Part shown: positions 2,991-60,960 of the stretch, in pieces
Position numbering within the stretch: the first letter of the stretch is position 1
How the letters are laid out: each line of letters starts with the position of its first letter
DNA from: Eledone cirrhosa
Lineage: Eukaryota; Mollusca; Cephalopoda; Octopoda; Eledonidae
Length of the DNA: 64,000 nucleotides
NCBI GenBank assembly: GCA_964016885.1
Contig: OZ024744.1
Coordinates: 118,357,697-118,421,696 of the forward strand
Direction of reading: 5' to 3'
Position numbers and translations under genes: made by a program
Notes under the pieces: generated by a model
Told to the model about the DNA's origin: nothing
What the model saw: the letters and a program-made list of their open reading frames with translations, nothing else
Databases searched by the model: none

Positions 2991-3053
2991 TGCTGCAAAT
3001 TTCAAACCTAGAGCATACACTAATAGATAAGTTGAAATTTATTTTACATGACT

Positions 3054-6615: not shown

Positions 6616-6634
6616 ACATACACATCTATGCCCC

Positions 6635-7790: not shown

Positions 7791-8164
7791 GAATTAGTGT
7801 GTGAGAGCTATTTCTAGTGTTACCACTTGTCACATCCCATCAATCGTAATTTAATTGGCCTGAGCAATGGCTGGCCTCACATTCTTTGGGAACAAATATT
7901 TTTCTGGAATTACAAGATGTCTACTGATGAATGCTAGCTTTTGGCTTCACCATTTACCAATGTTGATCAACAGTAAATGTTCTGCATGAAATGGTACCAT
8001 AAAGGTCTTGTAAAAACTTGGAGGCTATGTAAGTATAATACTTATTCTGTCTCTGTTTTTTTAGTCTGATTATATTGTCCTCTGCTAAATATTGGATATG
8101 TGGTTTCCTATGTTATTGGCAGTGTGAAACCACTGAGGTCTTGGATTTTTAACTCTAATTTTCT
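7791..8164. other. Unassigned, possibly 5' part of the retrotransposon
   Basis: No readable protein similarity in any frame. It lies immediately upstream of the putative ORF1 remnant and may be a decayed 5' region of that element, but nothing in the sequence shows this. Confidence 0.4.
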
Positions 8165-8690
8165 CATTGAGCAGCAAAGGTAAAATAAGGAACCATCAAA
8201 GAGGAAGGAAGTAACAAGTGAACAAATGTTGAAACAAAGAAGATTAGAATTAAGAGAAACAGAGACCTTGGAAAAAAGAGAGCCCAAATACTCTGTAAAT
8301 TTTTCAAGAAAAGTGATCTGCTGACATGGAAAAGCAGAGGCAGGTTGCAGATTTGCTCATACCAGACCTCATGTGAGTTGCACACAACCAGTACATCCCA
8401 AATACTCAAGCTAAAACTACCATGGACAGACAACACAGCAGATAGGGTCACTGCCCAGGAAATATGATGTTACACGTACTGCCCCGATGAAAAGAAGATA
8501 TGTAGAAGCAGTACAGACAGTAGCTGCAGAGCAACAATCGTTTTTAGACATGGCAGAAAAGATAGTACAACAATTGATTTGGCTACATCAGATACAAAGT
8601 GATTCACACCAACATTCATGACCACTACAAAGAAACGCAGAGTGACCACCACCACTGACACTGAAATATGTTAGCAGCAGCCACTGCTAA
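8165..8690 (+). pseudogene. Possible ORF1 (gag-like) remnant of the non-LTR element
   Basis: One + frame reads 'KREPKYSVNFSRKVIC', a stop, then 'HGKAEAGCRFAHTRP' and 'VSC' (about 8,270-8,390). The C..HG....GC.F.H spacing looks like a CCCH-type zinc finger, which ORF1 proteins of related elements often carry. Further down comes 'RRYVEAVQTVAAEQQSFLDM' and 'AEKIVQQL' (about 8,490-8,580), a helical, Gln-rich stretch of the sort found at the end of such ORF1 proteins. Multiple stops and frameshifts. The position just upstream of the endonuclease supports the call, but the similarity is weak. Confidence 0.4.
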
Positions 8691-9310
8691 CAGCTCAAAT
8701 ATCACACCAGTGCTACTGCTAAATGTGAGTGGCTAGGTAAAAGTTAGCAGCATGAGTACAATCTCCACAAGCATTCAAGCAATATGCATGTCACTAACTG
8801 AGAAGTAAGATGCAGAGGCAGAAATACACATAATGAAGTATGCTGTATTTCATCCTGACAGAAGAGAAAGAACTCTTTGTATGTCCATGAATATGTCACA
8901 CCATTAGTACTGTCACATTCCAACTCAGGCTGTGATACACTAATAGTACACATAAAGCAACTCAAAATGGTAATATGTCACATATCGATCACCAGACGCC
9001 TCTAGTTGTGAGGAAAAGTTTGAAGATGACCTCAGAAAGATTGAAGAAGTACTAACCAAACTGGATCAGAGTCTCAACATACTGCTGCTGGGAGATTTTA
9101 ACTCCAAAAGGTCAAATGAGCTGAAGACCAGTGCCTCTCAGGAATGACAATACTTAAACCTTACAAAACGACTTTTCATGGAACAAAGGGCACTTCATCC
9201 AAGAGATGAGAAGACCTGAATCTCTGCTTCATAAATAACACGGGGCTCACCCACAATGTAAATATGAAACCAATGATTTTCTCGGAACATAGCATAGTAG
9301 AACTAGGAAG
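8690..9310 (+). pseudogene. Non-LTR retrotransposon endonuclease domain (APE-like)
   Basis: This domain nicks target DNA to prime reverse transcription. Recognisable blocks in order on the + strand, spread over frames, are: 'YAVFHPDRRER' near 8,838-8,870 (usual Y.VFR.DR); 'CDTLIVHIK' near 8,932-8,958; 'YRSPDASSCEEKFEDDLRKI' near 8,983-9,042 (usual YRPPD); 'LLLGDFN' at 9,082-9,102, the hallmark GDFN; and 'MIFSEHSIVEL' near 9,272-9,304, the position of the terminal SDH motif, here SEH. Stops and frameshifts separate the blocks, so the copy is dead. It continues into the linker and reverse transcriptase downstream. Confidence 0.82.
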
Positions 9311-9559
9311 GTATAGTCTGAGGAAGACTGTAGATATACTACCGACAGGAAACACTTGGTCTATCAAACAAAACCTTCCACAGAACTAACTAGAAAAGGA
9401 TTCAGGAAGAGCTCCCGAAGCAAAACTGGACAAACAGTTTCTCTATGGAAGATGTCCACATTAAACTTGAACAATTCATGGAAATAATATAAACTATATG
9501 CTCCAAGTTTACCCCAGAAAGAAAGGCCAACAGATACAAGAATAATATTCCCAAAGATA

Positions 9560-9900
9560 GAAAAATGCTTACGTGATAGAGAACAAAGATCTCAAACTGT
9601 CTACATATACAAGGAACAAGAAGGAATCCCATTTGAAGCAGGCACTGTTTGAAATTGCCAGTGAAATGAAACTTTCCCATGAAAAAGTTAGGACAGAAAG
9701 GAAAGCCAGAACTAAAGAAAACATAGAAATGAACCTAAGGTCTTCTTTAAATTTGCAAAAGGGACTGCCTCAGTACATTACAGGATGGGGCTAGTTTCCC
9801 ATAAAAATGGCTCACTAACTGCAGACCCCTAAGGGATAAGTGAAGTACTGAATGGGCAATATAAAAGTGTTTCCACACCCCTAATGAGATACATACAAAT
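9560..9900 (+). pseudogene. Endonuclease-RT linker of the same element
   Basis: The + frames read 'SHEKVRTERKARTKENIE', then, after a frameshift, 'FKFAKGTASVHYRMGLVSHK', 'NGSLTADP', and 'GISEVLNGQYKSVSTP' (about 9,835-9,882). This corresponds to the segment between endonuclease and palm in Jockey/CR1-like proteins ('KNPKYFF.YAKK....IGPL....G.LT.DP..MAE.L..QY..VFS.P'). The stretch 9,310-9,560 between this and the endonuclease is decayed linker with no clear motif. Confidence 0.75.
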
Positions 9901-9949
9901 AAGTAAACCAATTGAGTTCTTTAACACCACAGCACAACACAGAGAAACG

Positions 9950-10640
9950 GGAAATATCAACCACATAGATATAAAGGTGAAAGGTGCAATATCAGCCATA
10001 GACGAAATGAGACCAAATTCAGCAGCTGGCAGTGATGGTTTCCCAGCAAACTTCTTAAAATCATACAAATGAACATTAGCAAAACTACTGCAGATCATCT
10101 TCCAAAGTTCCTTTTCATGGGGTACAGTACTCAGAAAACTAAAAGATGGCATATGTCCTAAACATAAAAAAGGAAGTGGAACAGATGCTAAAAACTACCA
10201 ACCTGTCTCCTTAACATATCAGCAAAGAAGAAATCTGATCACATACCTAAAGGAAATATAACCAACTAACTGACACCCAGCTTGACTTTTGTCTGGGTAG
10301 AGCTGCCTTACATAGTATTATGACTGGGTACTGAAACAATTGCTAAACTGTTCAAACATGGATGTAATATATTTCGACTTTGCAAAAGCCTTTGACAAGA
10401 ATTGGTCATGGAATATGCTACAAACTTCGGAGTTTCAGCATAGCTGGAAAACTAGGTGAAAGGATTCATGATTTCTTAAAAGACAGAAGCCTGTTGCAGC
10501 CAGCAGGGTCCTCACAAAAGAAAGATCAATAACAATTAGTGTGCATCAGGGAACAGTCTTCTGTTTGTGGTGGGTCTCTGACATACCCTCCATAATATAG
10601 ACAGTCTCCCTCACTTGATGATGAGCAGAAAGTAGCACAA
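9950..10640 (+). pseudogene. Reverse transcriptase, Jockey/CR1-like non-LTR, decayed
   Basis: RT blocks appear in order. 'AISAIDEMRPNSAAGSDGFP' and 'ANFLKSYK' (9,989-10,071) equal the 'AaGpDgIP' block. 'GTVLRKLKDG', 'KHKKGSGTDAKNYQPVSLT' (about 10,120-10,216) equal 'KK....NYRPVSLT'. 'DVIYFDFAKAFDK' (10,361-10,399) is RT motif A with its first catalytic Asp. 'VHQGTVFC' (about 10,541-10,563) corresponds to GVPQGSVLGP. 'LDDEQKVAQSRI' starting at 10,614 sits where the FADDTKV catalytic motif should be, with the two Asp kept but the preceding Phe-Ala lost. Stops (for example after 'FLKSYK') and frameshifts disable it. Family assignment beyond Jockey/CR1-like is not possible by eye. Confidence 0.9.
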
Positions 10641-10969
10641 TCAAGAATCTGGTTGGTGCAACCCTCTTACAGGATTTTCATGCCATATACAAATGGACAA
10701 TGCCAGAAAATCTCTATCAACCTGTAAACAAGGCCAATGCAACAAAACTACACCATACCAGGAGGTATAGAAATCAATAGAGGACCTGGGTTTTGACATG
10801 AGCAATGATACATCACCAAACTGTGCAGATGATTGGCATGTTTCATTTTGAAGACTTTCAAGACAAGAAAGCAAGAGACCATGTTAGTTAACTGGACTAT
10901 TGTCCTCAGCAGTGTTAAACTAACTGCAGAAATTTGTGTAAGCTACTCCAAGGAGATTGCCTCAATGAA
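10641..10969 (+). pseudogene. RT thumb and start of C-terminal domain, left half
   Basis: After the catalytic block come 'PGGIEINRGPGF' (about 10,760-10,795), matching the 'YxxxGxxI..vkDLGV' region, and then 'KTFKTRKQETML' (10,851-10,886), matching 'RTF.TR....ML'. From 10,851 a single frame runs through 'SSVKLTAEICVSYSKEIASM' and on without interruption into the first 77-bp satellite monomer ('KEMRY', a TGA codon, 'ERLTEALLSG'). In intact relatives this is the 'F.SKI.GM.EM.YWERL' stretch, so TGA replaces the Trp codon TGG. About 30 residues before 'SKEIASM' look deleted. The protein then continues on the far side of the array at 60,400. Confidence 0.8.
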
Positions 10970-11431
10970 GGAGATGAGATACTGAGAGAGGCTGACAGAA
11001 GCTCTACTGTCTGGAATGTGAGAGATATATACAGTGATATAGATAAGGAGATGAGGTACTGAGAGAGGCTGACAGAAGCTCTACTGTCTGGAATGGGAGA
11101 GATATATACAGTGATATAGATAAGGAGATGAGGTACTGAGAGAGGCTGACAGAAGCTCTACTGTCTGGAATGGGAGAGATATATACAGTGATATAGATAA
11201 GGAGATGAGGTACTGAGAGAGGCTGACAGCAGCTCTACTGTCTGGAATGGGAGAGATATATACAGTGATATAGATAAGGAGATGAGGTACTGAGAGAGGC
11301 TGACAGAAGCTCTACTGTCTGGAATGGGAGAGATATATACAGTGATATAGATAAGGAGATGAGGTACTGAGAAAGGTTGACAGAAGCTCTACTGTCTGGA
11401 ATGGGAGAGATATATACAGTGATATAGATAA

Positions 11432-13581
11432 GGAGATGGGGTACTGAGAGAGGCTGACAGAAGCTCTACTGTCTGGAATGGGAGAGATATATACAGTGAT
11501 ATAGATAAGGAGATGAGGTACTGAGAGAGGCTGACAGAAGTTCTACTGTCTGGAATGGGAGAGATATATACAGTGATATAGATAAGGAGATGAGGTACTG
11601 AGAGAGGCTGACAGAAGCCCTACTGTCTGGAATGGGAGAGATATATACAGTGATATAGATAAGTAGATGAGGTACTGAGAGAGGCTGACAGAAGCCCTAC
11701 TGTCTGGAATGGGAGAGATATATACAGTGATATAGATAAGGAGATGAGGTACTGAGAGAGGCTGACAGAAGTGCTACTGACTGGAATGGGAGAGATATAT
11801 ACAGTGATATAGATAAGGAGATGAGGTACTGAGAGAGATTGACAGAAGCTCTACTGTCTGGAATGGGAGAGATATATACAGTGATATAGATAAGGAGATG
11901 AGGTACTGAGCGAGGTTGACAGAAGTGCTACTGTCTGGAATGGGAGTGATATATACAGTGATATAGGTAAGGAGATGAGGTACTGAGAGAGGCTGACAGA
12001 AGCTCTACTGTCTGGAATGGGAGAGATATATACAGTGAAATAGATAAGGAGATGAGGTACTGAGAGAGGCTGACAGAAGTTCTACTATCTGGAATGGGAG
12101 AGATATATACAGTGATATAGATAAGGAGATGAGGTACTGAGAGAGGCTGACAGTAGCTCTACTGTCTGGAATGGGAGAGATATATACAGTGATATAGATA
12201 AGGAGATGAGGTACTGAGAGAGGCTGACAGAAGTTCTACTGTCTGGAATGGGAGAGATATATACAGTGATATAGATAAGATGAGGTACTGAGAGAAGCTG
12301 ACAGAAGCTCTACAGTCTGGAATGGGAGAGATATATACAGTGATATAGATAAGGAGATGAAGTACTGAGAGAGGCTGACAGAAGCTCTACTGTCTGGAAT
12401 GGGAGAGATATATACAGTGATATAGATAAGGAGATGAGGTACTGAGAAAGGTTGACAGAAGCTCTACTGTCTGGAATGGGAGAGATATATACAGTGATAT
12501 AGATAAGGAGATGGGGTACTGAGAGAGGCTGACAGAAGCTCTACTGTCTGGAATGGGAGAGATATATACAGTGATATAGATAAGGAGATGAGGTACTGAG
12601 AGAGGCTGACAGAAGTTCTACTGTCTGGAATGGGAGAGATATATACAGTGATATAGATAAGGAGATGAGGTACTGAGAGAGGCTGACAGAAGCCCTACTG
12701 TCTGGAATGGGAGAGATATATACAGTGATATAGATAAGTAGATGAGGTACTGAGAGAGGCTGACAGAAGCCCTACTGTCTGGAATGGGAGAGATATATAC
12801 AGTGATATAGATAAGGAGATGAGGTACTGAGAGAGGCTGACAGAAGTGCTACTGACTGGAATGGGAGAGATATATACAGTGATATAGATAAGGAGATGAG
12901 GTACTGAGAGAGATTGACAGAAGCTCTACTGTCTGGAATGGGAGAGATATATACAGTGATATAGATAAGGAGATGAGGTACTGAGCGAGGTTGACAGAAG
13001 TGCTACTGTCTGGAATGGGAGTGATATATACAGTGATATAGGTAAGGAGATGAGGTACTGAGAGAGGCTGACAGAAGCTCTACTGTCTGGAATGGGAGAG
13101 ATATATACAGTGAAATAGATAAGGAGATGAGGTACTGAGAGAGGCTGACAGAAGTTCTACTATCTGGAATGGGAGAGATATATACAGTGATATAGATAAG
13201 GAGATGAGGTACTGAGAGAGGCTGACAGTAGCTCTACTGTCTGGAATGGGAGAGATATATACAGTGATATAGATAAGGAGATGAGGTACTGAGAGAGGCT
13301 GACAGAAGTTCTACTGTCTGGAATGGGAGAGATATATACAGTGATATAGATAAGATGAGGTACTGAGAGAAGCTGACAGAAGCTCTACAGTCTGGAATGG
13401 GAGAGATATATACAGTGATATAGATAAGGAGATGAAGTACTGAGAGAGGCTGACAGAAGCTCTACTGTCTGGAATGGGAGAGATATATACAGTGATATAG
13501 ATAAGGAGATGAGGTACTGAGAAAGGTTGACAGAAGCTCTACTGTCTGGAATGGGAGAGATATATACAGTGATATAGATAA
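11432..13581 (+). repeat. 14-monomer (1,075-bp) higher-order unit, two tandem copies
   Basis: Copies begin with the 'ggagatgggg' monomer at 11,432 and 12,507. Both carry the same ordered variants: gttctactg, gccctactg, 'aagtagatgagg', gtgctactgactgg, gagagattgac, 'gagcgaggttgac' with 'gggagtgatat' and 'ataggtaagg', 'gtgaaatag', 'tctactatctgg', 'agtagctc', a 74-bp monomer, 'gatgaagtac' and 'gagaaaggttgac'. The length is 14 x 77 minus the 3-bp deletion. I saw no difference at these sites between the two copies. Confidence 0.9.
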
Positions 13582-16500
13582 GGAGATGAGGTACTGAGAG
13601 AGGCTGACAGAAGCTCTACTGTCTGGAATGGGAGAGATATATACAGTGATATAGATAAGGAGGTGAGGTACTGAGAGAGGCTGACAGAAGTGCTACTCTC
13701 TGGAATGGGAGAGATATATACAGTGATATAGATAAGGAGATGAGGTACTGAGAGAGGTTGACAGAAGCTCTACTGTCTGGAATGGGAGAGATATATACAG
13801 TGATATAGATAAGGAGATGAGGTACTGAGAGAGGCTGACAGAAGTTCTACTGTCTGGAATGGGAGAGATATATACAGTGATATAGATAAGGAGATGAGGT
13901 ACTGAGAGAGGCTGACAGAAGTTCTACTGTCTGGAATGGGAGAGATATATACAGTGATATAGATAAGATGAGGTACTGAGAGAAGCTGACAGAAGCTCTA
14001 CTGTCTGGAATGGGAGAGATATATACAGTGATATAGATAAGGAGATGAAGTACTGAGAGAGGCTGACAGAAGCTCTACTGTCTGGAATGGGAGAGATATA
14101 TACAGTGATATAGATAAGGAGATGAGGTACTGAGAGAGGCTGACAGAAGTTCTACTGTCTGGAATGGGAGAGATATATACAGTGATATAGATAAGGAGAT
14201 GAGGTACTGAGAGAGGTTGACAGAAGCTCTACTGTCTGGAATGGGAGAGATATATACAGTGATATAGATAAGGAGATGAGGTACTGAGAGAGGTTGACAG
14301 AAGCTCTACTGTCTGGAATGGGAGAGATATATACAGTGATATAGATAAGGAGATGAGGTACTGAGAGAGGCTGACAGTAGCTCTACTGTCTGGAATGGGA
14401 GAGATATATACAGTGATATAGATAAGGAGATGAGGTACTGAGAGAGGCTGACAGAAGCTCTACTGTCTGGAATGGGAGAGATATATACAGTGATATAGAT
14501 AAGGAGATGAGGTACTGAGAGAGGCTGACAGAAGTTCTACTGTCTGGAATGGGAGAGATATATACAGTGATATAGATAAGGAGATGAGGTACTGAGAGAG
14601 GTTGACAGAAGCTCTACTGTCTGGAATGGGAGAGATATATACAGTGATATAGATAAGGAGATAAGGTACTGAGAGAGGCTGACAGCAGCTCTACTGTCTG
14701 GAATGGGAGAGATATATACAGTGATATAGATAAGGAGATGAGGTACTGAGAGAGGCTGACAGAAGTTCTACTGTCTGGAATGGGAGAGATATATACAGTG
14801 ATATAGATAAGGAGTTGAGGTACTGAGAGAGGCTGACAGAAGCTCTACTGTCTGGAATGGGAGAGATATATACAGTGATATGGGTAAGGAGATGAGGTAC
14901 TGAGAGAGGCTGACAGAAGCTCTACTGTCTGGAATGGGAGAGATATATACAGTGATATAGATAAGGAGATGGGGTACTGAGAGAGGCTGACAGAAGCTCT
15001 ACTGTCTGGAATGGGAGAGATATATACAGTGATATAGATAAGGAGATGAGGTACTGAGAGAGGCTGACAGAAGTTCTACTGTCTGGAATGGGAGAGATAT
15101 ATACAGTGATATAGATAAGGAGATGAGGTACTGAGAGAGGCTGACAGAAGCTCTACTGTCTGGAATGGGAGAGATATATACAGTGATATAGATAAGGAGA
15201 TGAGGTACTGAGAGAGGCTGACAGAAGCTCTACTGTCTGGAATGGGAGAGATATATACAGTGATATAGATAAGGAGATGAGGTACTGAGAGAGGTTGACA
15301 GAAGCTCTACTGTCTGGAATGGGAGAGATATATACAGTGATATAGATAAGGAGATGAGGTACTGAGAGAGGCTGACAGAAGCTCTACTGTCTGGAATGGG
15401 AGAGATATATACAGTGATATAGATAAGATGAGGTACTGAGAGAGGCTGACAGAAACTCTACTGTCTGGAATGGGAGAGATATATACAGTGATATAGATAA
15501 GGAGATGAGGTACTGAGAGAGGCTGACAGAAGTTCTACTGTCTGGAATGTGAGAGATATATACAGTGATATAGATAAGGAGATGAGGTACTGAGAGAGGC
15601 TGACAGAAGCTCTACTGTCTGGAATGGGAGAGATATATACAGTGATATAGATAAGGAGATGAGGTACTGAGAGAGGCTGACAGAAGTTCTACTGTCTGGA
15701 ATCGGAGAGATATATACAGTGATATAGATAAGGAGATGAGGTACTGAGAGAGGCTGACAGAAGCTCTTCTGTCTGGAATGGGAGAGCTATATACAGTGAT
15801 ATAGATAAGGAGATGAGGTACTGAGAGAGGCTGACAGAAGCTCTACTGTCTGGAATGGGAGAGATATATACAGTGATATAGATAAGGAGATGAGGTACTG
15901 AGAGAGGCTGACAGAAACTCTACTGTCTGGAATAGGAGAGATATATACAGTGATATAGATAAGGAGATGAGGTACTGAGAGAGGCTGACAGAAGCTCTAC
16001 TGTCTGGAATGGGAGAGATATATACAGTGATATAGATAAGGAGATGAGGTACTGAGAGAGGCTGACAGAAGTTCTACTGTCTGGAATGGGAGAGATATAT
16101 ACAGTGATATAGATAAGGAGATGAGGTACTGGGAGAGGCTGACAGAAGCTCTACTGTCTGGAATGGGAGAGATATATACAGTGATATAGATAAGGAGATG
16201 AGGTACTGAGAGAGGCTGACAGAAGTTCTACTGTCTGGAATGGGAGAGATATATACAGTGATATAGATAAGGAGATGAGGTACTGAGAGAGGCTGACAGA
16301 AGCCCTACTGTCTGGAATGGGAGAGATATATACAGTGATATAGATAAGGAGATGAGGTACTGAGAGAGGCTGACAGAAGCCCTACTGTCTGGAATGGGAG
16401 AGATATATACAGTGATATCGATAAGGAGATGAGGTACTGAGAGAGGCTGACAGAAGTTCTACTGTCTGGAATGGGAGAGATATATACAGTGATATAGATA

Positions 16501-17129
16501 AGGAGATGAGGTACTGGGAGAGGCTGACAGAAGTTCTACTGTCTGGAATGGGAGAGATATATACAGTGATATAGATAAGGAGATGAGGTACTGAGAGAGG
16601 CTGACAGAAGCTCTACTGTCTGGAATGGGAGAGATATATACAGTGATATAGATAAGGAGATGAGGTACTGAGAGAGGCTGACAGAAGCTCTACTGTCTGG
16701 AATGGGAGAGATATATACAGTGATATAGATAAGGAGATGAGGTACTGAGAGAGGCTGACAGAAGCTCTACTGTCTGGAATGGGAGAGATATATACAGTGA
16801 TATAGATAAGGAGATGAGGTACTGAGAGAGGCTGACAGAAGCTCTACTGTCTGGAATGGGAGAGATATATACAGTGATATAGATAAGGAGATGAGGTACT
16901 GAGAGAGGCTGACAGAAGCTCTACTGTCTGGAATGGGAGAGATATATACAGTGATATAGATAAGGAGATGAGGTACTGAGAGAGGCTGACAGCAGCTCTA
17001 CTGTCTGGAATGGGAGAGATATATACAGTGATATAGATAAGGAGATGAGGTACTGAGAGAGGCTGACAGAAGCTCTACTGTCTGGAATGGAGAGATATAT
17101 ACAGTGATATAGATAAGGAGATGAGGTAC

Positions 17130-19700
17130 TGAGAAAGATTGACAGAAGCTCTACTGTCTGGAATGGGAGAGATATATACAGTGATATAGATAAGGAGATG
17201 GGGTACTGAGAGAGGCTGACAGAAGCTCTACTGTCTGGAATGGGAGAGATATATACAGTGATATAGATAAGGAGATGAGGTACTGAGAGAGGCTGACAGA
17301 AGTTCTACTGTCTGGAATGGGAGAGATATATACAGTAATATAGATAAGGAGATGAGGTACTGAGAGAGGCTGACAGAAGCCCTACTGTCTGGAATGGGAG
17401 AGATATATACAGTGATATAGATAAGTAGATGAGGTACTGAGAGAGGCTGACAGAAGCCCTACTGTCTGGAATGGGAGAGATATATACAGTGATATAGATA
17501 AGGAGATGAGGTACTGAGAGAGGCTGACAGAAGTGCTACTGACTGGAATGGGAGAGATATATACAGTGATATAGATAAGGAGATGAGGTACTGAGAGAGA
17601 TTGACAGAAGCTCTACTGTCTGGAATGGGAGAGATATATACAGTGATATAGATAAGGAGATGAGGTACTGAGCGAGGTTGACAGAAGTGCTACTGTCTGG
17701 AATGGGAGTGATATATACAGTGATATAGGTAAGGAGATGAGGTACTGAGAGAGGCTGACAGAAGCTCTACTGTCTGGAATGGGAGAGATATATACAGTGA
17801 AATAGATAAGGAGATGAGGTACTGAGAGAGGCTGACAGAAGTTCTACTATCTGGAATGGGAGAGATATATACAGTGATATAGATAAGGAGATGAGGTACT
17901 GAGAGAGGCTGACAGTAGCTCTACTGTCTGGAATGGGAGAGATATATACAGTGATATAGATAAGGAGATGAGGTACTGAGAGAGGCTGACAGAAGTTCTA
18001 CTGTCTGGAATGGGAGAGATATATACAGTGATATAGATAAGATGAGGTACTGAGAGAAGCTGACAGAAGCTCTACTGTCTGGAATGGGAGAGATATATAC
18101 AGTGATATAGATAAGGAGATGAAGTACTGAGAGAGGCTGACAGAAGCTCTACTGTCTGGAATGGGAGAGATATATACAGTGATATAGATAAGGAGATGAG
18201 GTACTGAGAAAGGTTGACAGAAGCTCTACTGTCTGGAATGGGAGAGATATATACAGTGATATAGATAAGGAGATGAGGTACTGAGAGAGGCTGACAGAAG
18301 CTCTACTGTCTGGAATGGGAGAGATATATACAGTGATATAGATAAGGAGGTGAGGTACTGAGAGAGGCTGACAGAAGTGCTACTCTCTGGAATGGGAGAG
18401 ATATATACAGTGATATAGATAAGGAGATGAGGTACTGAGAGAGGTTGACAGAAGCTCTACTGTCTGGAATGGGAGAGATATATACAGTGATATAGATAAG
18501 GAGATGAGGTACTGAGAGAGGCTGACAGAAGTTCTACTGTCTGGAATGGGAGAGATATATACAGTGATATAGATAAGGAGATGAGGTACTGAGAGAGGCT
18601 GACAGAAGTTCTACTGTCTGGAATGGGAGAGATATATACAGTGATATAGATAAGGAGATGGGGTACTGAGAGAGGCTGACAGTAGCTCTACTGTCTGGAA
18701 TGGGAGAGATATATACAGTGATATAGATAAGATGAGGTACTGAGAGAAGCTGACAGAAGCTCTACTGTCTGGAATGGGAGAGATATATACAGTGATATAG
18801 ATAAGGAGATGAAGTACTGAGAGAGGCTGACAGAAGCTCTACTGTCTGGAATGGGAGAGATATATACAGTGATATAGATAAGGAGATGAGGTACTGAGAG
18901 AGGCTGACAGAAGTTCTACTGTCTGGAATGGGAGAGATATATACAGTGATATAGATAAGGAGATGAGGTACTGAGAGAGGTTGACAGAAGCTCTACTGTC
19001 TGGAATGGGAGAGATATATACAGTGATATAGATAAGGAGATGAGGTACTGAGAGAGGTTGACAGAAGCTCTACTGTCTGGAATGGGAGAGATATATACAG
19101 TGATATAGATAAGGAGATGAGGTACTGAGAGAGGCTGACAGTAGCTCTACTGTCTGGAATGGGAGAGATATATACAGTGATATAGATAAGGAGATGAGGT
19201 ACTGAGAGAGGCTGACAGAAGCTCTACTGTCTGGAATGGGAGAGATATATACAGTGATATAGATAAGGAGATGAGGTACTGAGAGAGGCTGACAGAAGTT
19301 CTACTGTCTGGAATGGGAGAGATATATACAGTGATATAGATAAGGAGATGAGGTACTGAGAGAGGTTGACAGAAGCTCTACTGTCTGGAATGGGAGAGAT
19401 ATATACAGTGATATAGATAAGGAGATAAGGTACTGAGAGAGGCTGACAGCAGCTCTACTGTCTGGAATGGGAGAGATATATACAGTGATATAGATAAGGA
19501 GATGAGGTACTGAGAGAGGCTGACAGAAGTTCTACTGTCTGGAATGGGAGAGATATATACAGTGATATAGATAAGGAGTTGAGGTACTGAGAGAGGCTGA
19601 CAGAAGCTCTACTGTCTGGAATGGGAGAGATATATACAGTGATATGGGTAAGGAGATGAGGTACTGAGAGAGGTTGACAGAAGCTCTACTGTCTGGAATG
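17130..19700 (+). repeat. Repeat of block 12.45-14.95 kb (offset 4,687/4,764 bp)
   Basis: The 1,075-bp variant series recurs from 17,194 (offset 4,687 from 12,507) and continues through the 'aggaggtgagg' and 'tactctctgg' monomers (13,661 and 18,348). After one extra monomer (near 18,650-18,740) the offset becomes 4,764 for the 'ggagataagg' monomer (14,661 and 19,425). Small differences (for example 'ctctacagtctgg' versus 'ctctactgtctgg') show it is older than the tandem 1,075-bp pair. Confidence 0.85.
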
Positions 19701-48400: not shown

Positions 48401-51400
48401 GAGAGAGGCTGACAGAAGCTCTACTGTCTGGAATGGGAGAGATATATACAGTGATATAGATAAGGGGATGGGGTACTGAGAGAGGTTGACAGAAGTTCTA
48501 CTGTCTGGAATGGGAGAGATATATACAGTGATATAGATAAGGAGATGAGGTACTGAGAGAGGCTGACAGAAGCCCTACTGTCTGGAATGGGAGAGATATA
48601 TACAGTGATATAGATAAGGAGATGAGGTACTGAGAGAGGCTGACAGAAGCCCTACTGTCTGGAATGGGAGAGATATATACAGTGATATAGATAAGGAGAT
48701 GAGGTACTGAGAGAGGCTGACAGAAGCCCTACTGTCTGGAATGGGAGAGATATATACAGTGATATAGATAAGGAGATGAGGTACTGAGAGAGGCTGACAG
48801 AAGCTCTACTGTCTGGAATGGGAGAGATATATACAGTGATATAGATAAGGAGATGAGGTACTGAGAGAGGCTGACAGAAGCTCTACTGTCTGGAATGGGA
48901 GAGATATATACAGTGATATAGATAAGGAGATGAGGTACTGAGAGAGGCTGACAGAAGCTCTCCTGTCTGGAATGGGAGAGATATATACAGTGATATAGAT
49001 AAGGAGATGAGGTACTGAGAGAAGCTGACAGAAGCTCTACTGTCTGGAATGGGAGAGATATATACAGTGATATAGATAAGGAGATGAGGTACTGAGAGAG
49101 GCTGACAGAAGCTCTACTGTCTGGAATGGGAGAGATATATACAGTGATATAGATAAGGAGATGAGGTACTGAGAGAGGCTGACAGAAGCCCTACTGTCTG
49201 GAATGGGAGAGATATATACAGTGATATAGATAAGGAGATGGGGTACTGAGAGAGGTTGACAGTAGCTCTACTGTCTGGAATGGGAGAGATATATACAGTG
49301 ATATAGATAAGGAGATGAGGTACTGAGAGAGGTTGACAGAAGTTCTACTGTCTGGAATGGGAGAGATATATACAGTGATATAGATAAGGAGATGGGGTAG
49401 TGAGAGAGGCTGACAGAAGCCCTACTGTCTGGAATGGGAGAGATATATACAGTGATATAGATAAGGAGATGAGGTACTGAGAGAGGTTGACAGAAGCTCT
49501 ACTGTCTGGAATGGGAGAGATATATACAGTGATATAGATAAGGAGATGAGGTACTGAGAGAGGCTGACAGAAGCTCTACTGTCTGGAATGGGAGAGATAT
49601 ATACAGTGATATAGATAAGGAGATGAGGTACTGAGAGAGGCTGACAGAAGCTCTACTGTCTGGAATGGGAGAGATATATACAGTGATATAGATAAGGAGA
49701 TGAGGTACTGAGAGAGGTTGACAGAAGCTCTTCTGTCTGGAATGGGAGAGATATATACAGTGATATAGATAAGGAGATGGGGTACTGAGAGAGGCTGACA
49801 GAAGCTCTACTGTCTGGAATGGGAGAGATATATAGTGATATAGATAAGGAGATGAGGTACTGAGAGAGGCTGACAGAAGCTCTACTGTCTGGAATGGGAT
49901 AGATATATACAGTGATATAGATAAGGAGATGAGGTACTGAGAGAGGCTGACAGAAGTTCTACTGTCTGGAATGGGAGAGATATATACAGTGATATAGATA
50001 AGGAGATGAGGTACTGAGAGAGGCTGACAGAAGTTCTACTGTCTGGAATGGGAGAGATATATACAGTGATATAGATAAGGAGATGAGGTACTGAGAGAGG
50101 CTGACAGAAGCTCTTCTGTCTGGAATGGGAGAGCTATATACAGTGATATAGATAAGGAGATGAGGTACTGAGAGAGGCTGACAGAAGCTCTACTGTCTGG
50201 AATGGGAGAGATATATACAGTGATATAGATAAGGAGATGAGGTACTGAGAGAGGCTGACAGAAGCTCTACTGTCTGGAATGGGAGAGATATATACAGTGA
50301 TATAGATAAGGAGATGAGGTACTGAGAGAGGCTGACAGAAGCCCTACTGTCTGGAATGGGAGAGATATATACAGTGATATAGATAAGGAGATGAGGTACT
50401 GAGCGAGGTTGACAGAAGCCCTACTGTCTGGAATGGGAGAGATATATACAGTGATATAGATAAGATGAGGTACTGAGAGAGGCTGACAGAAGTGCTACTG
50501 TCTGGAATGGGAGAGATATATACAGTGATATAGATAAGGAGATGAGGTACTGAGAGAGGCTGACAGAAGCTCTACTGTCTGGAATGGGAGAGATATATAC
50601 AGTGATAGAGATAAGGAGATGAGGTACTGAGAGAGGCTGACAGAAGTTCTACTGTCTGGAATGGGAGAGATATATACAGTGATATAGATAAGTAGATGAG
50701 GTACTGAGAGAGGCTGACAGAAGTGCTACTGTCTGGAATGGGAGAGATATATACAGTGATATAGATAAGGAGATGAGGTACTGAGAGAGGTTGACAGAAG
50801 CTCTACTGTCTGGAATGGGAGAGATATATACAGTGATATAGATAAGGAGATGAGGTACTTAGAGAAGCTGACAGAAGCTCTACTGTCTGGAATTGGAGAG
50901 AAATATAAAGTGATGTAGATAAGGAGATGAGGTACTGAGAGAGGCTGACAGAAGCTCTACTGTCTGGAATGGGAGAGAGATATACAGTGATATAGATAAG
51001 ATGAGGTACTGAGAGAAGTTGACAGAAGCTCTACTGTCTGGAATGGGAGAGATATATACAGTGATATAGATAAGGAGATGAGGTACTGAGAGAGGCTGAC
51101 AGAAGCTCTACTGTCTGGAATGGGAGAGATATATACAGTGATATAGATAAGGAGATGAGGTACTGAGAGAGGCTGACAGAAGCTCTACTGTCTGGAATGG
51201 GAGAGAGATATACAGTGATATAGATAAGATGAGGTACTGAGAGAAGTTGACAGAAGTTCTACTGTCTGGAATGGAAGAGATATATACAGTGATATAGATA
51301 AAGAGATGAGCTACTGAGAGAAGCTGACAGAAGCTCTACTGTCTGGAATGGGAGAGATATATACAGTGATATAGATAAGGAGATGAGGTACTGAGAGAGG

Positions 51401-51415
51401 CTGACAGAAGCTCTA
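39433..51415 (+). repeat. 11,983-bp tandem segmental duplication, copy 2
   Basis: Begins directly where copy 1 ends. The match with copy 1 continues to 39,450/51,433 and breaks at 39,451 (a) versus 51,434 (c), so the junction is ambiguous by 18 bp, as expected for exchange within identical monomers. I found no base difference at the sites compared. Full identity needs an alignment. Confidence 0.93.
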
Positions 51416-54400
51416 CTGTCTGGAATGGGAGAGCTATATACAGTGATATAGATAAAGAGATGAGGTACTGAGAGAGGTTGACAGCAGCTCTACTGTCTGG
51501 AATGGGAGAGCTATATACAGTGATATAGATAAGGAGATGAGGTACTGAGAGAGGCTGACAGAAGTGCAACTGTCTGGAATGGGAGAGATATATACAGTGA
51601 TATAGATAAGGAGATGAGGTACTGAGAGAGGCTGACAGAAGTGCAACTGTCTGGAATGGGAGAGATATATACAGTGATATAGATAAGGAGATGAGGTACT
51701 GAGAGAGGCTGACATAAGTGCAACTGTCTGGAATGGGAGAGATATATACAGTGATATAAATAAGGAGATGAGGTACTGAGAGAGGCTGACAGAAGCTCTA
51801 CTGTCTGGAATGGGAGAGATATATACAGTGATATAGATAAGGAGATGAGGTACTGAGAGAGGCTGACAGAAGCTCTACTGTCTGGAATGGGAGAGCTATA
51901 TACAGTGATATAGATAAGGAGATGAGGTACTGAGAGAAGCTGACAGAAGCTCTACTGTCTGGAATGGGAGAGATATATACAGTGATATAGATAAGGAGAT
52001 GAGGTACTGAGAGAGGCTGACAGAAGCTCTACTGTCTGGAATGGGAGAGATATTTACAGTGATATAGATAAGGAGATGAGGTACTGAGAGAGGCTGACAG
52101 AAGCTCTACTGTCTGGAATGTGAGAGATATATACAGTGATATAGATAAGGAGATGAGGTACTGAGAGAGGCTGACAGAAGCTCTACTGTCTGGAATGTGA
52201 GAGATATATACAGTGATATAGATAAGGAGATGAGGTACTGAGAGAGGCTGACAGAAGCTCTACTGTCTGGAATGGGAGAGATATATACAGTGATATAGAT
52301 AAAGAGATGAGGTACTGAGAGAGGCTGACAGAAGCTCTACTGTCTGGAATGTGAGAGATATATACAGTGATATAGATAAGGAGATGAGGTACTGAGAGAG
52401 GCTGACAGAAGCTCTACTGTCTGGAATGGGAGAGATATATACAGTGATATAGATAAAGAGATGAGGTACTGAGAGAGGCTGACAGAAGCTCTACTGTCTG
52501 GAATGGGAGAGATATATGCAGTGATATAGATAAGGAGATGAGGTACTGAGAGAGGCTGACAGAAGCTCTACTGTCTGGAATGGGAGAGATATATACAGTG
52601 ATATAGATAAGGAGATGAGGTACTGAGAGAGGCTGACAGAAGCTCTACTGTCTGGAATGGGAGAGATATATACAGTGATATAGATAAGGAGATGAAGTAC
52701 TGAGAGAGGTTGACAGAAGCTGTACTGTCTGGAATGGGAGAGATATATACAGTGATATAGATAAGGAGATGAGGTACTGAGAGAGGCTGACAGAAGCTCT
52801 ACTGTCTGGAATGGGAGAGATATATACAGTGATATAGATAAAGAGATGAGGTACTGAGAGAGGCTGACAGAAGCTCTACTGTCTGGAATGGGAGAGATAT
52901 ATACAGTGATATAGATAAGGAGATGAGGTACTGAGAGAGGCTGACAGAAGCTCTACTGTCTGGAATGGGAGAGATATATAGTGATATAGATAAGGAGATG
53001 AGGTACTGAGAGAGGCTGACAGAAGCTCTACTGTCTGGAATGGGATAGATATATACAGTGATATAGATAAGGAGATGAGGTACTGAGAGAGGCTGACAGA
53101 AGTTCTACTGTCTGGAATGGGAGAGATATATACAGTGATATAGATAAGGAGATGAGGTACTGAGAGAGGCTGACAGAAGTTCTACTGTCTGGAATGGGAG
53201 AGATATATACAGTGATATAGATAAGGAGATGAGGTACTGAGAGAGGCTGACAGAAGCTCTTCTGTCTGGAATGGGAGAGCTATATACAGTGATATAGATA
53301 AGGAGATGAGGTACTGAGAGAGGCTGACAGAAGCTCTACTGTCTGGAATGGGAGAGATATATACAGTGATATAGATAAGGAGATGAGGTACTGAGAGAGG
53401 CTGACAGAAGCTCTACTGTCTGGAATGGGAGAGATATATACAGTGATATAGATAAGGAGATAGGGTAGTGAGATAGGCTGACAGAAGCCCTACTGTCTGG
53501 AATGGGAGAGATATATACAGTGATATAGATAAGGAGATGAGGTACTGAGCGAGGTTGACAGAAGCCCTACTGTCTGGAATGGGAGAGATATATACAGTGA
53601 TATAGATAAGATGAGGTACTGAGAGAGGCTGACAGAAGCTCTACCGTCTGGAATGGGAGAGATATATACAGTGATATAGATAAGGAGATGAGGGACTGAG
53701 AGAGGCTGACAGAAGCTCTACTGTCTGGAATGGGAGAGATATATACAGTGATATAGATAAGTAGATGAGGTACTGAGAGAGGCTGACAGAAGTGCTACTG
53801 TCTGGAATGGGAGAGATATATACAGTGATATAGATAAGGAGATGAGGTACTGAGAGAGGCTGACAGAAGCCCTACTGTCTGGAATGGGAGAGATATATAC
53901 AGTGATAGAGATAAGGAGATGAGGTACTGAGAGAGGCTGACAGAAGTTCTACTGTCTGGAATGGGAGAGATATATACAGTGATATAGATAAGTAGATGAG
54001 GTACTGAGAGAGGCTGACAGAAGTGCTACTGTCTGGAATGGGAGAGATATATACAGTGATATAGATAAGGAGATGAGGTACTGAGAGAGGTTGACAGAAG
54101 CTCTACTGTCTGGAATGGGAGAGATATATACAGTGATATAGATAAGGAGATGAGGTACTTAGAGAAGCTGACAGAAGCTCTACTGTCTGGAATTGGAGAG
54201 AAATATAAAGTGATGTAGATAAGGAGATGAGGTACTGAGAGAGGCTGACAGAAGCTCTACTGTCTGGAATGGGAGAGAGATATACAGTGATATAGATAAG
54301 ATGAGGTACTGAGAGAAGTTGACAGAAGCTCTACTGTCTGGAATGGGAGAGATATATACAGTGATATAGATAAGGAGATGAGGTACTGAGAGAGGCTGAC

Positions 54401-56280
54401 AGAAGCTCTACTGTCTGGAATGGGAGAGATATATACAGTGATATAGATAAGGAGATGAGGTACTGAGAGAGGCTGACAGAAGCTCTACTGTCTGGAATGG
54501 GAGAGAGATATACAGTGATATAGATAAGATGAGGTACTGAGAGAAGTTGACAGAAGTTCTACTGTCTGGAATGGAAGAGATATATACAGTGATATAGATA
54601 AAGAGATGAGCTACTGAGAGAGGCTGACAGAAGCTCTACTGTCTGGAATGGGAGAGATATATACAGTGATATAGATAAGGAGATGAGGTACTGAGAGAGG
54701 CTGACAGAAGCTCTACTGTCTGGAATGGGAGAGCTATATACAGTGATATAGATAAAGAGATGAGGTACTGAGAGAGGTTGACAGCAGCTCTACTGTCTGG
54801 AATGGGAGAGCTATATACAGTGATATAGATAAGGAGATGAGGTACTGAGAGAGGCTGACAGAAGTGCAACTGTCTGGAATGGGAGAGATATATACAGTGA
54901 TATAGATAAGGAGATGAGGTACTGAGAGAGGCTGACAGAAGTGCAACTGTCTGGAATGGGAGAGATATATACAGTGATATAGATAAGGAGATGAGGTACT
55001 GAGAGAGGCTGACATAAGTGCAACTGTCTGGAATGGGAGAGATATATACAGTGATATAAATAAGGAGATGAGGTACTGAGAGAGGCTGACAGAAGCTCTA
55101 CTGTCTGGAATGGGAGAGATATATACAGTGATATAGATAAGGAGATGAGGTACTGAGAGAGGCTGACAGAAGCTCTACTGTCTGGAATGGGAGAGCTATA
55201 TACAGTGATATAGATAAGGAGATGAGCTACTGAGAGAAGCTGACAGAAGCTCTACTGTCTGGAATGGGAGAGATATATACAGTGATATAGATAAGGAGAT
55301 GAGGTACTGAGAGAGGCTGACAGAAGCTCTACTGTCTGGATTGGGAGAGATATTTACAGTGATATAGATAAGGAGATGAGGTACTGAGAGAGGCTGACAG
55401 AAGCTCTACTGTCTGGAATGTGAGAGATATATACAGTGATATAGATAAGGAGATGAGGTACTGAGAGAGGCTGACAGAAGCTCTACTGTCTGGAATGTGA
55501 GAGATATATACAGTGATATAGATAAGGAGATGAGGTACTGAGAGAGGCTGACAGAAGCTCTACTGTCTGGAATGGGAGAGATATATACAGTGATATAGAT
55601 AAAGAGATGAGGTACTGAGAGAGGCTGACAGAAGCTCTACTGTCTGGAATGTGAGAGATATATACAGTGATATAGATAAGGAGATGAGGTACTGAGAGAG
55701 GCTGACAGAAGCTCTACTGTCTGGAATGGGAGAGATATATACAGTGATATAGATAAAGAGATGAGGTACTGAGAGAGGCTGACAGAAGCTCTACTGTCTG
55801 GAATGGGAGAGATATATACAGTGATATAGATAAGGAGATGAGGTACTGAGAGAGGCTGACAGAAGCTCTACTGTCTGGAATGGGAGAGATATATACAGTG
55901 ATATAGATAAGGAGATGAGGTACTGAGAGAGGCTGACAGAAGCTCTACTGTCTGGAATGGGAGAGATATATACAGTGATATAGATAAGGAGATGAAGTAC
56001 TGAGAGAGGTTGACAGAAGCTGTACTGTCTGGAATGGGAGAGATATATACAGTGATATAGATAAGGAGATGAGGTACTGAGAGAGGCTGACAGAAGCTCT
56101 ACTGTCTGGAATGGGAGAGATATATACAGTGATATAGATAAAGAGATGAGGTACTGAGAGAGGCTGACAGAAGCTCTACTGTCTGGAATGGGAGAGATAT
56201 ATACAGTGATATAGATAAGGAGATGAGGTACTGAGAGAGGCTGACAGAAGCTCTACTGTCTGGAATGGGAGAGATATATA
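49830..56280 (+). repeat. ~3.3-kb tandem duplication with two extra monomers
   Basis: The interval ending at 52,980 is repeated at +3,300 bp, ending at 56,280 (mismatch g/c at 52,981/56,281). The left part, from the shortened 'gatatatagtgat' monomers near 49,832 and 52,982, is offset by about 3,150 bp, because the second copy has two extra monomers near 53.5-53.8 kb. Differences seen include 50,571/53,871, 51,322/54,622, one g/c change near 51,927/55,227 and one a/t change near 52,041/55,341. It is therefore less similar than the 12-kb pair. Confidence 0.88.
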
Positions 56281-59200
56281 CAGTGATATAAATAAGGAGA
56301 TGAGGTACTGAGAGAGGCTGACAGAAGTTCTACTGTCAGGAATGGGAGAGATATATACAGTGATATAGATAAGGAGATGAGGTACTGAGAGAGGCTGACA
56401 GAAGCTCTTCTGTCTGGAATGGGAGAGCTATATACAGTGATATAGATAAGGAGATGAGGTACTGAGAGAGGCTGACAGAAGCCCTACTGTCTGGAATGGG
56501 AGAGATATATACAGTGATATAGATAAGGAGATGAGGTACTGAGAGAGGCTGACAGAAGCTCTACTGTCTGGAATGGGAGAGATATATACAGTGATATAGA
56601 TAAGGAGATGAGGTTCTGAGAGAGGCTGACAGAAGCTCTACTGTCTGGAATGGGAGAGATATATACAGTGATATAGATAAGGAGATGAGGTACTGAGAGA
56701 GGCTGACAGAAGCTCTACTGTCTGGAATGGGAGAGATATATACAGTGATATAGATAAGGAGATGAGGTACTGATAGAGGCTGACAGAAGCTCTACTGTCT
56801 GGAATGGGAGAGATATATACAGTGATAAAGATAAGGAGATGAGGTACTGAGAGAGGCTGACAGAAGCTCTACTGTCTGGAATGGGAGAGATATATACAGT
56901 GATATAGATAAGGAGATGAGGTACTGAGAGAGGCTGACAGAAGCTCTACTGTCTGGAATGGGAGAGATATATACAGTGATATAGATAAGGAGATGGGGTA
57001 CTGAGAGAGGCTGACAGAAGCCCTACTGTCTGGAATGGGAGAGATATACACAGTGATATAGATAAGGAGATGAGGTACTGAGCGAGGTTGACAGAAGCCC
57101 TACTGTCTGGAATGGGAGAGATATATACAGTGATATAGATAAGATGAGGTACTGAGAGAGGCTGACAGAAGCTCTACCGTCTGGAATGGGAGAGATATAT
57201 ACAGTGATATAGATAAGGAGATGAGGTACTGAGAGAGTCTGACAGAAGTTCTACTGTCTGGAATGGGAGAGATATATACAGTGATATAGATAAGGAGATG
57301 AGGTACTGAGAGAGGCTGACAGAAGTTCTACTGTCTGGAATGGGAGAGATATATACAGTGATATAGATAAGGAGATGAGGTACTGAGAGAGGCTGACAGA
57401 AGCTCTACTGTCTGGAATGGGAGAGATATATACAGTGATATAGATAAGGAGATGAGGTACTGAGAGAGGCTGACAGAAGTGCTACTGTCTGGAATGGGAG
57501 AGATATATACAGTGATATAGATAAGGAGATGAGGTACTGAGAGAAGCTGACAGAAGCTCTACTGTCTGGAATTGGAGAGATATATACAGTGATATAGATA
57601 AGGAGATGAGGTACTGAGAGAGGCTGACAGAAGCTCTACTGTCTGGAATGGGAGAGAGATATACAGTGATATAGATAAGGAGATGAGGTACTGAGAGAAG
57701 TTGACAAAAGCTCTACTGTCTGGAATGGGAGAGATATATACAGTGATATAGATAAAGAGATGAGCTACTGAGAGAGGCTGACAGAAGTTCTACTGTCTGG
57801 AATGGGAGAGATATATACAGTGATATAGATAAGGAGATGGTGTACTGAGAGAGGTTGACAGAAGCTCTACTGTCTGGAATGGGAGAGATATATACAGTGA
57901 TATAGATAAGGAGATGAGGGACTGAGAGAGGCTGACAGAAGCTCTACTGTCTGGAATGGGAGAGATATATACAGTGATATAGATAAGGAGATGGGGTATT
58001 GAGAGAGGCTGACAGAAGCTCTACTGTCTGGAATGGGAGAGATATATACAGTGATATAGATAAGATGAGGTACTGAGAGAAGCTGACAGAAGCTCTACTG
58101 TCTGGAATGGGAGAGATATATACAGTGATATAGATAAGGAGATGAGGTACTGAGAGAGGCTGACAGAAGTTCTACTGTCTGGAATGGGAGAGATATATAC
58201 AGTGATATAGATAAGGAGATGAGGTACTGAGAGAGGCTGACAAGTTCTACTGTCTGGAATGGGAGAGATATATACAGTGATATAGATAAGGAGATGAGGT
58301 ACTGAGAGAGGCTGACAGAAGCTCTACTGTCTGGAATGGGAGAGATATATACAGTGATATAGATAAGGAGATGAGGTACTGAGAGAGGCTGACAGAAGCT
58401 CTACTGTCTGGAATGGGAGAGATATATACAGTGATATAGATAAAGAGATGAGGTACTGAGAGAGGCTGACAGAAGCTCTACTGTCTGGAATGGGAGAGAT
58501 ATATACAGTGATACAGATAAGGAGATGAGGTACTGAGAGAGGCTGACAGAAGCTCTACTGTCTGGAATGGGAGAGATATATACAGTGATATAGATAAGGA
58601 GATGAGGTACTGAGAGAGGCTGACAGAAGCTCTACTGTCTGGAATGGGAGAGATATATACAGTGATATAGATAAGGAGATGAGGTACTGAGAGAGGTTGA
58701 CAGAAGTTCTACTGTCTGGAATGGGAGAGATATATACAGTGATATAGATAAGGAGATGAGGTACTGAGAGAGGCTGAAAGAAGCTCTACTGTCTGGAATG
58801 GGAGAAATATATACAGTGATATAGATAAGGAGATGAGGTACTGAGAGAGGCTGACAGAAGCTCTTCTGTCTGGAATGGGAGAGATATATACAGTGATATA
58901 GATAAGGAGATGAGGTACTGAGCGAGGTTGACAGAAGCCCTACTGTCTGGAATGGGAGAGATATATACAGTGATAGATAAGGAGATGAGGTACTGAGAGA
59001 GGCTGACAGAAGTTCTACTGTCTGGAATGGGAGAGATATATACAGTGATAGAGATAAGGAGATGAGGTACTGAGAGAGGCTGACAGAAGTTCTACTGTCT
59101 GGAATGGGAGAGATATATACAGTGATATAGATAAGGAGATGAGGGACTGAGAGAGGCTGACAGAAGCTCTACTGTCTGGAATGGGAGAGATATATACAGT

Positions 59201-60399
59201 GATATAGATAAGTAGATGAGGTACTGAGAGAGGCTGACAGAAGTGCTACTGACTGGAATGGGAGAGATATATACAGTGATATAGATAAGGAGATGAGGTA
59301 CTGAGAGAAGCTGACAGAAGCTCTACTGTCTGGAATTGGAGAGATATATACAGTGATATAGATAAGGAGATGAGGTACTGAGAGAGGCTGACAGAAGCTC
59401 TACTGTCTGGAATGGGAGAGATATATACAGTGATATAGATAAGGAGATGAGGTACTGAGAGAGGCTGACAGAAGCTCTACTGTCTGGAATGGGAGAGAGA
59501 TATACAGTGATAGAGATAAGGAGATGAGGTACTGAGAGAAGCTGACAGAAGCTCTACTGTCTGGAATGGGAGAGATATATACAGTGATATAGATAAGGAG
59601 ATGGGGTACTGAGAGAGGCTGACAGAAGCTCTACTGTCTGGAATGGGAGAGATATATACAGTGATATAGATAAGGAGATGAGGTACTGAGAGAGGCTGAC
59701 AGAAGCTCTACTGTCTGGAATGGGAGAGATATATACAGTGATATAGATAAGTAGATGAGGTACTGAGAAAGGCTGACAGAAGCTCTTCTGTCTGGAATGG
59801 GAGAGATATATACAGTGATATAGATAAGGAGATGGGGTACTGAGAGAGGCTGACAGAAGCTCTACTGTCTGGAATGGGAGAGATATATACAGTGATATAG
59901 ATAAGGAGATGGGGTACTGAGAGAGGCTGACAGAAGCTCTACTGTCTGGAATGGGAGAGATATATACAGTGATATAGATAAGATGAGGTACTGAGAGAAG
60001 CTGACAGAAGCTCTACTGTCTGGAATGGGAGAGATATATACAGTGATATAGATAAGGAGATGAGGTACTGAGAGAGGTTGACAGAAGCCCTACTGTCTGG
60101 AATGGGAGAGATATATACAGTGATATAGATAAGGAGATGAGGTACTGAGAGAGGCTGACAGAAGCACTACTGTCTGGAATGGGAGAGATATATACAGTGA
60201 TATAGATAAGGAGATGAGGTACTGAGAGAGGCTGACAGAAGCTCTACTGTCTGGAATGGGAGAGATATATACAGTGATATAGATAAGGAGATGAGGTACT
60301 GAGAGAGGTTGACAGAAGCTCTACTGTCTGGAATGGGAGAGATATATACAGTGATATAGATAAGGAGATGAGGTACTGAGAGAGGCTGACAGAAGTTCA

Positions 60400-60667
60400 A
60401 CTCCTTAATGGGAGAGATTTATACAGTGATTGATATACATGAGGAAGATACTAGGACTAACACCAAACTTTGCCATTGAGAGCTGGACCAATCTTCAAAC
60501 AGGACACCACAGTATAGTGCCAAAAGTCCCCAGCTCTTTAATAAGCTAGGGGATCTACATGATGTGCATGTAGATATTTCCAAGAAACATCTCAACATTC
60601 TAGAACGCATGGCATGAGACGAAGTATAAACAGCGACAGTCTCTCTTACATAAAGTGCCAACTGTAG
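60400..60667 (+). pseudogene. Right half of the split retrotransposon: C-terminus
   Basis: Out of the last degenerate monomer, the + frame from 60,412 reads 'ERFIQ', a stop, then 'LIYMRKILGLTPNFAIESW' to about 60,486. Intact Jockey-like proteins of molluscs and crustaceans have 'RRRERY.IIY.WKIL.GL.PNF' at this place, just after 'YWERL'. In another frame, 60,534-60,614 reads 'LFNKLGDLHDVHVDISKKHL', matching the 'LFN.LP..LRDL.GV.VD.FK..L' block. From 60,614, 'MRRSINSDSLSYIKCQL' ends at a TAG (60,665-60,667), matching the 'RRA.SNSL' C-terminus. Two frameshifts separate these. Order, strand and spacing fit the C-terminal ~90 residues that are missing from the left half at 10,969. Confidence 0.8.
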
Positions 60668-60770
60668 AAAAATGGCAGTGCTCCAGCAAGCCCTTAGTCA
60701 GTTGGCTGGAACACGCAAACGAGATACATCAATCCTTCCCTCTCTCCCTCCATGCGTCTGACTCTCGAGA
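60668..60770. other. Possible 3' UTR of the split retrotransposon
   Basis: About 100 bp without coding signal between the retrotransposon stop and the GATA-type microsatellite. No poly(A) or clear 3' end could be placed. Confidence 0.3.
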
Positions 60771-60960
60771 GAGATACACTCAAATATATAGAGAGAGACA
60801 ATCAGACAGATAGATACAATACAAATGTAGAGAGAGAGATATATAGATATATAGATACGATACACCAATGCACAGATAGATAGATACACCAATACACAGA
60901 CAGATAGATAGATATATAGATACAATACACCAATACACAGATAGACATATAGACAGATAT
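60771..60960. repeat. Composite GATA/GATACACCAATACACAGACA microsatellite
   Basis: Imperfect gata, gaga and 'gatacaccaatacacagaca' units. The same composite unit reappears at 63,891-64,000 on the other side of the LINE cluster, so both belong to one interrupted locus. Confidence 0.9.

Follow-up and report, generated by a model that had tools for sequence, protein, structure and literature searches.

The 77-bp tandem array of Eledone cirrhosa described here lies on contig C28 of a 2.98-Gb assembly, at 118.36–118.42 Mb of 136.5 Mb, in a window (the whole stretch of DNA analyzed, 64,000 nucleotides) that contains no N. TRF called it over the interval given in Table 1, with a period of 77, 643.9 copies and 96% matches, and cyclic alignment resolved it into 644 monomers and a scrap, the final monomer being half diverged. 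Monomer spacing (n = 644) was 77 bp in 597 cases, 74 bp in 26, 75 bp in 20 and 76 bp in one. There were 133 distinct monomer sequences, 131 monomers were identical to the consensus, and identity to the consensus averaged 97.8%, so that the array shows the head-to-tail order and homogeneous monomers of a TE-derived satellite. The array is enclosed by a single decayed LINE copy spanning about 8,172–60,733, whose halves now stand about 49.4 kb apart; an earlier note on this DNA, made from its letters alone, had claimed a roughly 640-fold array inside retrotransposon coding sequence and a separation of 49.5 kb, and both claims proved to be real. On the minus strand, the array also contains many open frames of 126–178 aa (16,921–60,012), which probably arise simply because the 77-bp period contains few stops.

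Table 1. Features of the LINE copy and of the array within it (window coordinates).
Feature	Position	Strand	Description	Basis or remark
LINE left part	8172..10967	+	Endonuclease and reverse transcriptase coding, many stops and frameshifts, ends ...KEIASM	Alignment to P0001 and non-self copies
77-bp tandem array	10968..60430	+	644 monomers	Unit is the LINE coding segment K-E-M-x-Y-W-E-R-L ... R-Y-T-V-I-Y
Left-edge monomer 1	10968..11044	+	TGA; differs from consensus at positions 12 and 52	In LINE frame
Example TGG monomer	16115..16191	+	TGG after TAC	Most likely a back-mutation
Duplication copy 1	27450..39432	+	156 monomers, in register	Identity across 12,001 bp, lag 11,983
Duplication copy 2	39433..51415	+	Perfect match to copy 1	
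Right-edge remnant	60362..60438	+	First 34 bp equal the monomer consensus, second half diverged	Runs on into LINE
LINE right part	60439..60733	+	RKILGLTPNF ... LFNKL ... to about the 3' end	Alignment to P0001 and P0003, sister copies

Other repeats lie outside the LINE copy. Upstream of it are minisatellites at 1060–1327 (56-bp unit), 2075–2538 (93 bp), 3053–3483 (33 bp) and 6138–6616 (24 bp). Downstream, on the minus strand between 60,959 and 63,600, LINE-like 3' ends (60962, 63044 and 63556 by pattern, ~62766 by reading) adjoin GATA-rich runs, reflecting either insertion into GATA microsatellites or the elements' own (TATC)n tails.

When part of the broken reading frame of the left flank was used as a protein query, 120 relatives were found, the best of which, P0001 (52% identity) and P0002 (50%), carry endonuclease and reverse transcriptase domains (PF03372, PF14529 and PF00078); the best named relative was a protein of Argonauta hians, P0003 (38%). 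We take the flanking element to be a LINE of the endonuclease-RT type, putatively of the Jockey/CR1 group. When the decayed pieces of the window were themselves searched for domains, PF14529 was found below threshold (E 0.011) and the reverse transcriptase domain was not matched. A frameshift-tolerant alignment placed 8,680–11,018 against P0001 from residue 45 onward, with 52% identity, 14 stops and 22 frameshifts. On the right side, 60,368–60,537 (the last monomer and right flank) matched residues 901–960 of P0001 at 55% identity, 60362–60670 matched residues 647–752 of P0003 at 41%, and P0002 was matched over residues 840–900. Flanks from two different families, an outcome that the earlier note had named as fatal to its own reading, were looked for; instead, the left side (52% identity to P0001) and the right side (55%) proved to be members of one family at similar depth.

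The outer limits of the LINE copy were set by its relatives within the genome, since the match of the 11 best non-self copies starts at 8172–8235 and the homology of six sister copies stops at 60,728–60,733. No word of at least 8 bp was shared between 8001–8700 and 60701–60800 as a candidate target-site duplication; the LINE copy is old and decayed.

Sister copies were collected from both sides of the array. The first set, recruited through the left junction, consists of 38 dispersed copies (39 rows, two of them representing the same copy; from 379 candidates, of which 38 were scored), each taken with 0.7–1.5 kb on either side. The second, recruited through the right flank, consists of 29 copies out of 39 listed that were not the window itself (from 532 candidates, of which 40 were scored, the window among them). 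Two loci are common to both sets, leaving 27 new ones and a total of 65 distinct sister copies. All 38 copies of the first set contained a single strong match to the segment that corresponds to the monomer, with scores of 77–178 and second matches of 24–44, where 30 shufflings of one locus gave a background of at most 38. In the second set one clear match was present in 26 of 29 copies (top score at least 71, second at most 36), the exceptions being L054 and L067, in which the match is truncated, and L044, in which an insertion splits the segment. In none of the 65 dispersed sisters examined did the segment recur with a strong match. Homology to both flanks of the window surrounds the single segment in 33 of the 38 copies of the first set, and left-flank homology is present in 19 of the 29 copies of the second. 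The same holds at the protein level, where 99 of the 120 relatives have one match to the segment, 21 have none and none has two, at a per-hit E of up to 1 (92 at 0.001). Relatives without the unit, the other outcome that was to count against the earlier note, were therefore not what the comparison returned, the unit occurring once in these 99 proteins and in every genomic copy of the first set.

The length of the segment is a different matter. The note had proposed to check whether other copies of the element contain the 77-bp segment exactly once; the segment is indeed single in the 38 dispersed copies, but it measures 86 bp in 24 of them (range 72–90), compared to 77 bp for the array monomer, so that 77 bp is inexact as a description of the unit in the source element. 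The statement that YWERL is directly followed by RRRERY in intact relatives was also wrong: P0001 and P0002 read YW(E/D)RL(K/R)ELRLYSLERRRDRY, with nine residues between YWERL and RRRDRY, and the monomer retains a decayed form of this stretch (KLYCLE).

The consensus monomer aligns to the corresponding DNA segment in sister copies, and its best protein alignments fall at one corresponding site, at residues 901–925 of P0001, 840–866 of P0002 and 647–673 of P0003. Taken alone, however, it is only weakly similar to these proteins. Shuffled monomers reached its score against the segment in 56/2000 cases for P0001, 8/2000 for P0002 and 0/2000 for P0003, and against the whole proteins in 30/300, 6/300 and 0/300 cases, respectively, while the reverse complement scored 30, 26 and 28 compared to 32, 36 and 41 for the forward strand. 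The identity of the unit is for this reason argued from its position, from DNA comparison with the sisters and from the edges of the array. Together with the protein alignments, the sister alignments, the right-edge remnant and the left junction indicate that the monomer is homologous to a segment of the transposable element.

At the left edge, the frame 'KTFKTRKQETML...SKEIASMKEMRY*ERLTEALLSG' enters monomer 1 unbroken, and at the right edge the last monomer continues into 'LIYMRKILGLTPNF' and, after a change of reading frame, 'LFNKL'; the continuity of frame into the array and the resumption of the element beyond it had both been asserted beforehand, and both were confirmed. The left protein alignment, which reaches residue 901 of P0001, was dropped as evidence of contiguity because its final residues are out of register: its end sets IASM against IAEL, the LINE copy lacking about 26 residues at this point. 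The left junction consequently rests on DNA, namely on the 20 bp that precede monomer 1, which lie at an edit distance of 1–6 (median 2.5) from the sisters, compared to 5–10 for shuffled 20-mers, and which stop exactly at the start of the segment in 35 of 38 sisters. At the right junction, the last monomer and the sequence downstream align without a break to the three proteins, over the residues given above for the right side. A 24-bp piece from the second half of the monomer is at edit distance 1 in the right-edge remnant and at 4–8 in the 65 sisters, so that private changes absent from all of these sisters are common to the remnant and the monomers. By this measure, the remnant is sister to the array monomers. 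The left flank, for its part, is linked to the array through position and homology, without shared private changes. We attempted to link the two flanks through their distances to sisters. Mean identity to the 38 sisters in local DNA alignments was similar on the two sides (81% left, 80% right). Across 37 sisters (L027 was omitted, its aligned length being below 120), the distance of the left flank showed no correlation with that of the right (rho 0.03), a value that cannot prove that both flanks are one copy, and this approach was rejected. Microhomology at the breakpoints was also considered and set aside, since the direct repeat ATGAAGGAGAT / ATGAGGAAGAT, with 9 of 11 positions matching, was equalled in 88 of 500 shuffles and is not beyond chance.

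Exact matching over the whole assembly found a 26-bp piece of the monomer 392 times and a 30-bp piece 468 times, all on the forward strand, and the window alone contains 392 and 468 matches, indicating that neither piece has an exact match elsewhere in the assembly; diverged copies of the monomer could be present at other places in the genome. Backward-pattern controls of both pieces had no match genome-wide, and a monomer 24-mer had none in the viral contigs searched. Satellites are usually abundant and located at many loci or chromosomes, and the exact monomer pieces here are confined to the array. We use the word satellite for the size and form of the repeat, which is strictly a single-locus array.

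The junctions, the single segment in the sisters and the single-locus exact matches strongly support the view, already put forward in the earlier note, that a segment of one element copy was duplicated and expanded in place, and we think it very probable, on comparison of these sequences, that the array was born inside this LINE copy from the copy's own segment. The LINE copy would have inserted long ago and then decayed, its Trp codon changing from TGG to TGA and its KEMxYWERL...RYxVIY segment acquiring short indels. The segment, 86 bp in most sisters, would then have been duplicated head to tail within the one copy, perhaps by slippage or break repair, and expansion in place would have produced about 644 monomers of 77 bp and moved the element halves to their present distance. 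The homogeneity of the array against its decayed flanks might also be expected if a pre-existing satellite had been inserted or recombined into the LINE copy, but such a satellite has left no exact monomer piece at any other locus, the monomer matches the segment that the element would normally carry at this position, and the right-edge remnant carries the monomers' private changes, and we regard this origin as extremely improbable. We likewise give very little credence to the idea that the tandem repeat already existed in the LINE lineage and moved with it. Satellites are known to arise by expansion of short arrays internal to TEs, according to the part of PMC12628747 available to us, yet none of the 65 sister copies examined had such a repeat of the segment and exact monomer pieces are absent elsewhere, although a rare carrier could be missed, since the scored candidates were 38 out of 379 in one search and 40 out of 532 in the other. 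The array has no demonstrated function; on this reading, the halves of the element were simply pushed apart. The monomer is 67.5% purine and the segment falls at the 94th–97th percentile in the 7 copies tested, which is suggestive only, and we do not claim purine bias as a cause of the expansion.

The state of the Trp codon bears on the order of these events. The codon after TAC is TGA in 630 of 644 monomers, TGG in nine, TTA in three and CGA in two. Four TGG monomers had been reported previously, and these are real, with five more found here; the nine start at 16115, 16500, 21957, 29560, 32713, 34942, 41543, 44696 and 46925. They form three lineages, consisting of 16115 alone, 16500 with 21957, and the remaining six, each a block copy of the others, on the backgrounds plain consensus, C35T and G3A+A10G+C35T. 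If these monomers survived from the element before its mutation, the array would have started before the change to TGA. The TGG present in 28 of 38 sisters and the nine TGG monomers on three backgrounds are what such survival might leave, but TGA occupies both edge monomers as well as the great majority of those between, A-to-G variants occur at 11 of the 27 A sites of the monomer, the Trp-codon site included, and TGA at this codon in 5 of 38 sisters indicates an ordinary decay change. We consider survival unlikely. The TGA at both edges, the three TGG lineages and the common A-to-G variants suggest instead that the TGG monomers are most likely back-mutations and that the TGA change most likely preceded the expansion; the statement that some monomers "still" keep the Trp codon is thus unsupported.

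Exact block repeats occur within the array at lags such as 1,075, 2,229, 3,153, 3,300, 4,764 and 5,072 bp. Among them is a perfect tandem duplication of 11,983 bp, one copy of which makes up 24% of the array; within it, 155 monomers in a row are identical to those 156 positions away. These block repeats, together with the perfect duplication, suggest that later growth may have proceeded through unequal exchange involving blocks of roughly 1–12 kb, a process that would also have kept the monomers alike. The duplication itself is either a very recent event or an assembly artefact. The accessible part of PMC13282606 implies a rate of JC distance 0.2 at 56 million years, and at that rate zero differences in ~12 kb would mean an age of less than roughly 35,000 years, without conversion, or else an assembly error. 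That the assembler went round a repeat loop two times, in an array that is real but truly about 37.5 kb long, is a possibility that we take seriously without favoring it. It would explain why there are zero differences over 12,001 bp when monomers average 2.2% from the consensus. The duplication is, however, in register, at 156 whole monomers, which a simple end-to-end contig join gives only about once in 77 cases, and no N interrupts the window, yet a loop walked twice would be in register likewise.

Repeats of other kinds were observed at or near the corresponding segment in some sister copies. One sister (L003:1618–1939) contains an independent array of 22.6 copies of a 14-bp unit, derived from the 3' end of the segment, and (AT)n lies at the segment in L017 and overlaps it in L054. 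Because (AT)n arrays also occur near but outside the segment in L028, L056, L067 and L069, we rejected a general claim of an AT hotspot. It is conceivable, as a tentative conjecture that we hold to be doubtful, that the array represents an initial stage confined to one locus and is still gaining large blocks, and that its source segment is predisposed to expansion, with L003, L017 and L054 as further instances. If growth in blocks is ongoing, the length of the array should vary among individuals.

Satellites derived from transposable elements are already known as a kind. The chicken HinfI satellite is part of CR1 ORF2, and PROsat of Phodopus roborovskii is part of L1 ORF2 (PMC9659126); as in the array described here, the unit overlaps LINE ORF2 coding sequence. 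As told in section 2.2 of that paper, both were matched to their elements by similarity, whereas the present array is still within its source copy, at one locus and with both edges. The cetacean common satellite is also LINE-derived, but its source is the 3'-terminal portion of L1 (PMC9659126), compared to a 77-bp internal piece at one locus of the assembly in Eledone. In a legume, retrotransposon-derived satellites are frequent, as reported in the accessible part of PMC7004042. The satellites of Lathyrus and pea that derive from Ogre 3'UTRs resemble our array in that long arrays grew from a retrotransposon segment; Ogre, however, is an LTR element, and its satellites arose as many arrays from tandem repeats already present in the 3'UTRs (PMC9659126 and the same part of PMC7004042), whereas here a single-copy LINE coding segment was expanded. 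In the available portion of the O. vulgaris repeat paper (PMC13282606) the word 'satellite' is absent. Our literature search found no paper on this array.

What sets the present case apart is the unusual clarity of an array that occupies a single locus and retains both of its founder edges. Satellites are usually seen only in finished form, after the source element and the first duplication have disappeared. In the present case the parent copy and both edges persist, unexpanded sisters number in the dozens and exact copies are absent elsewhere, so that the steps of a satellite's birth can be read, from the single segment through decay, duplication, block growth and homogenization. The array also offers a way of testing whether certain coding segments tend to expand.
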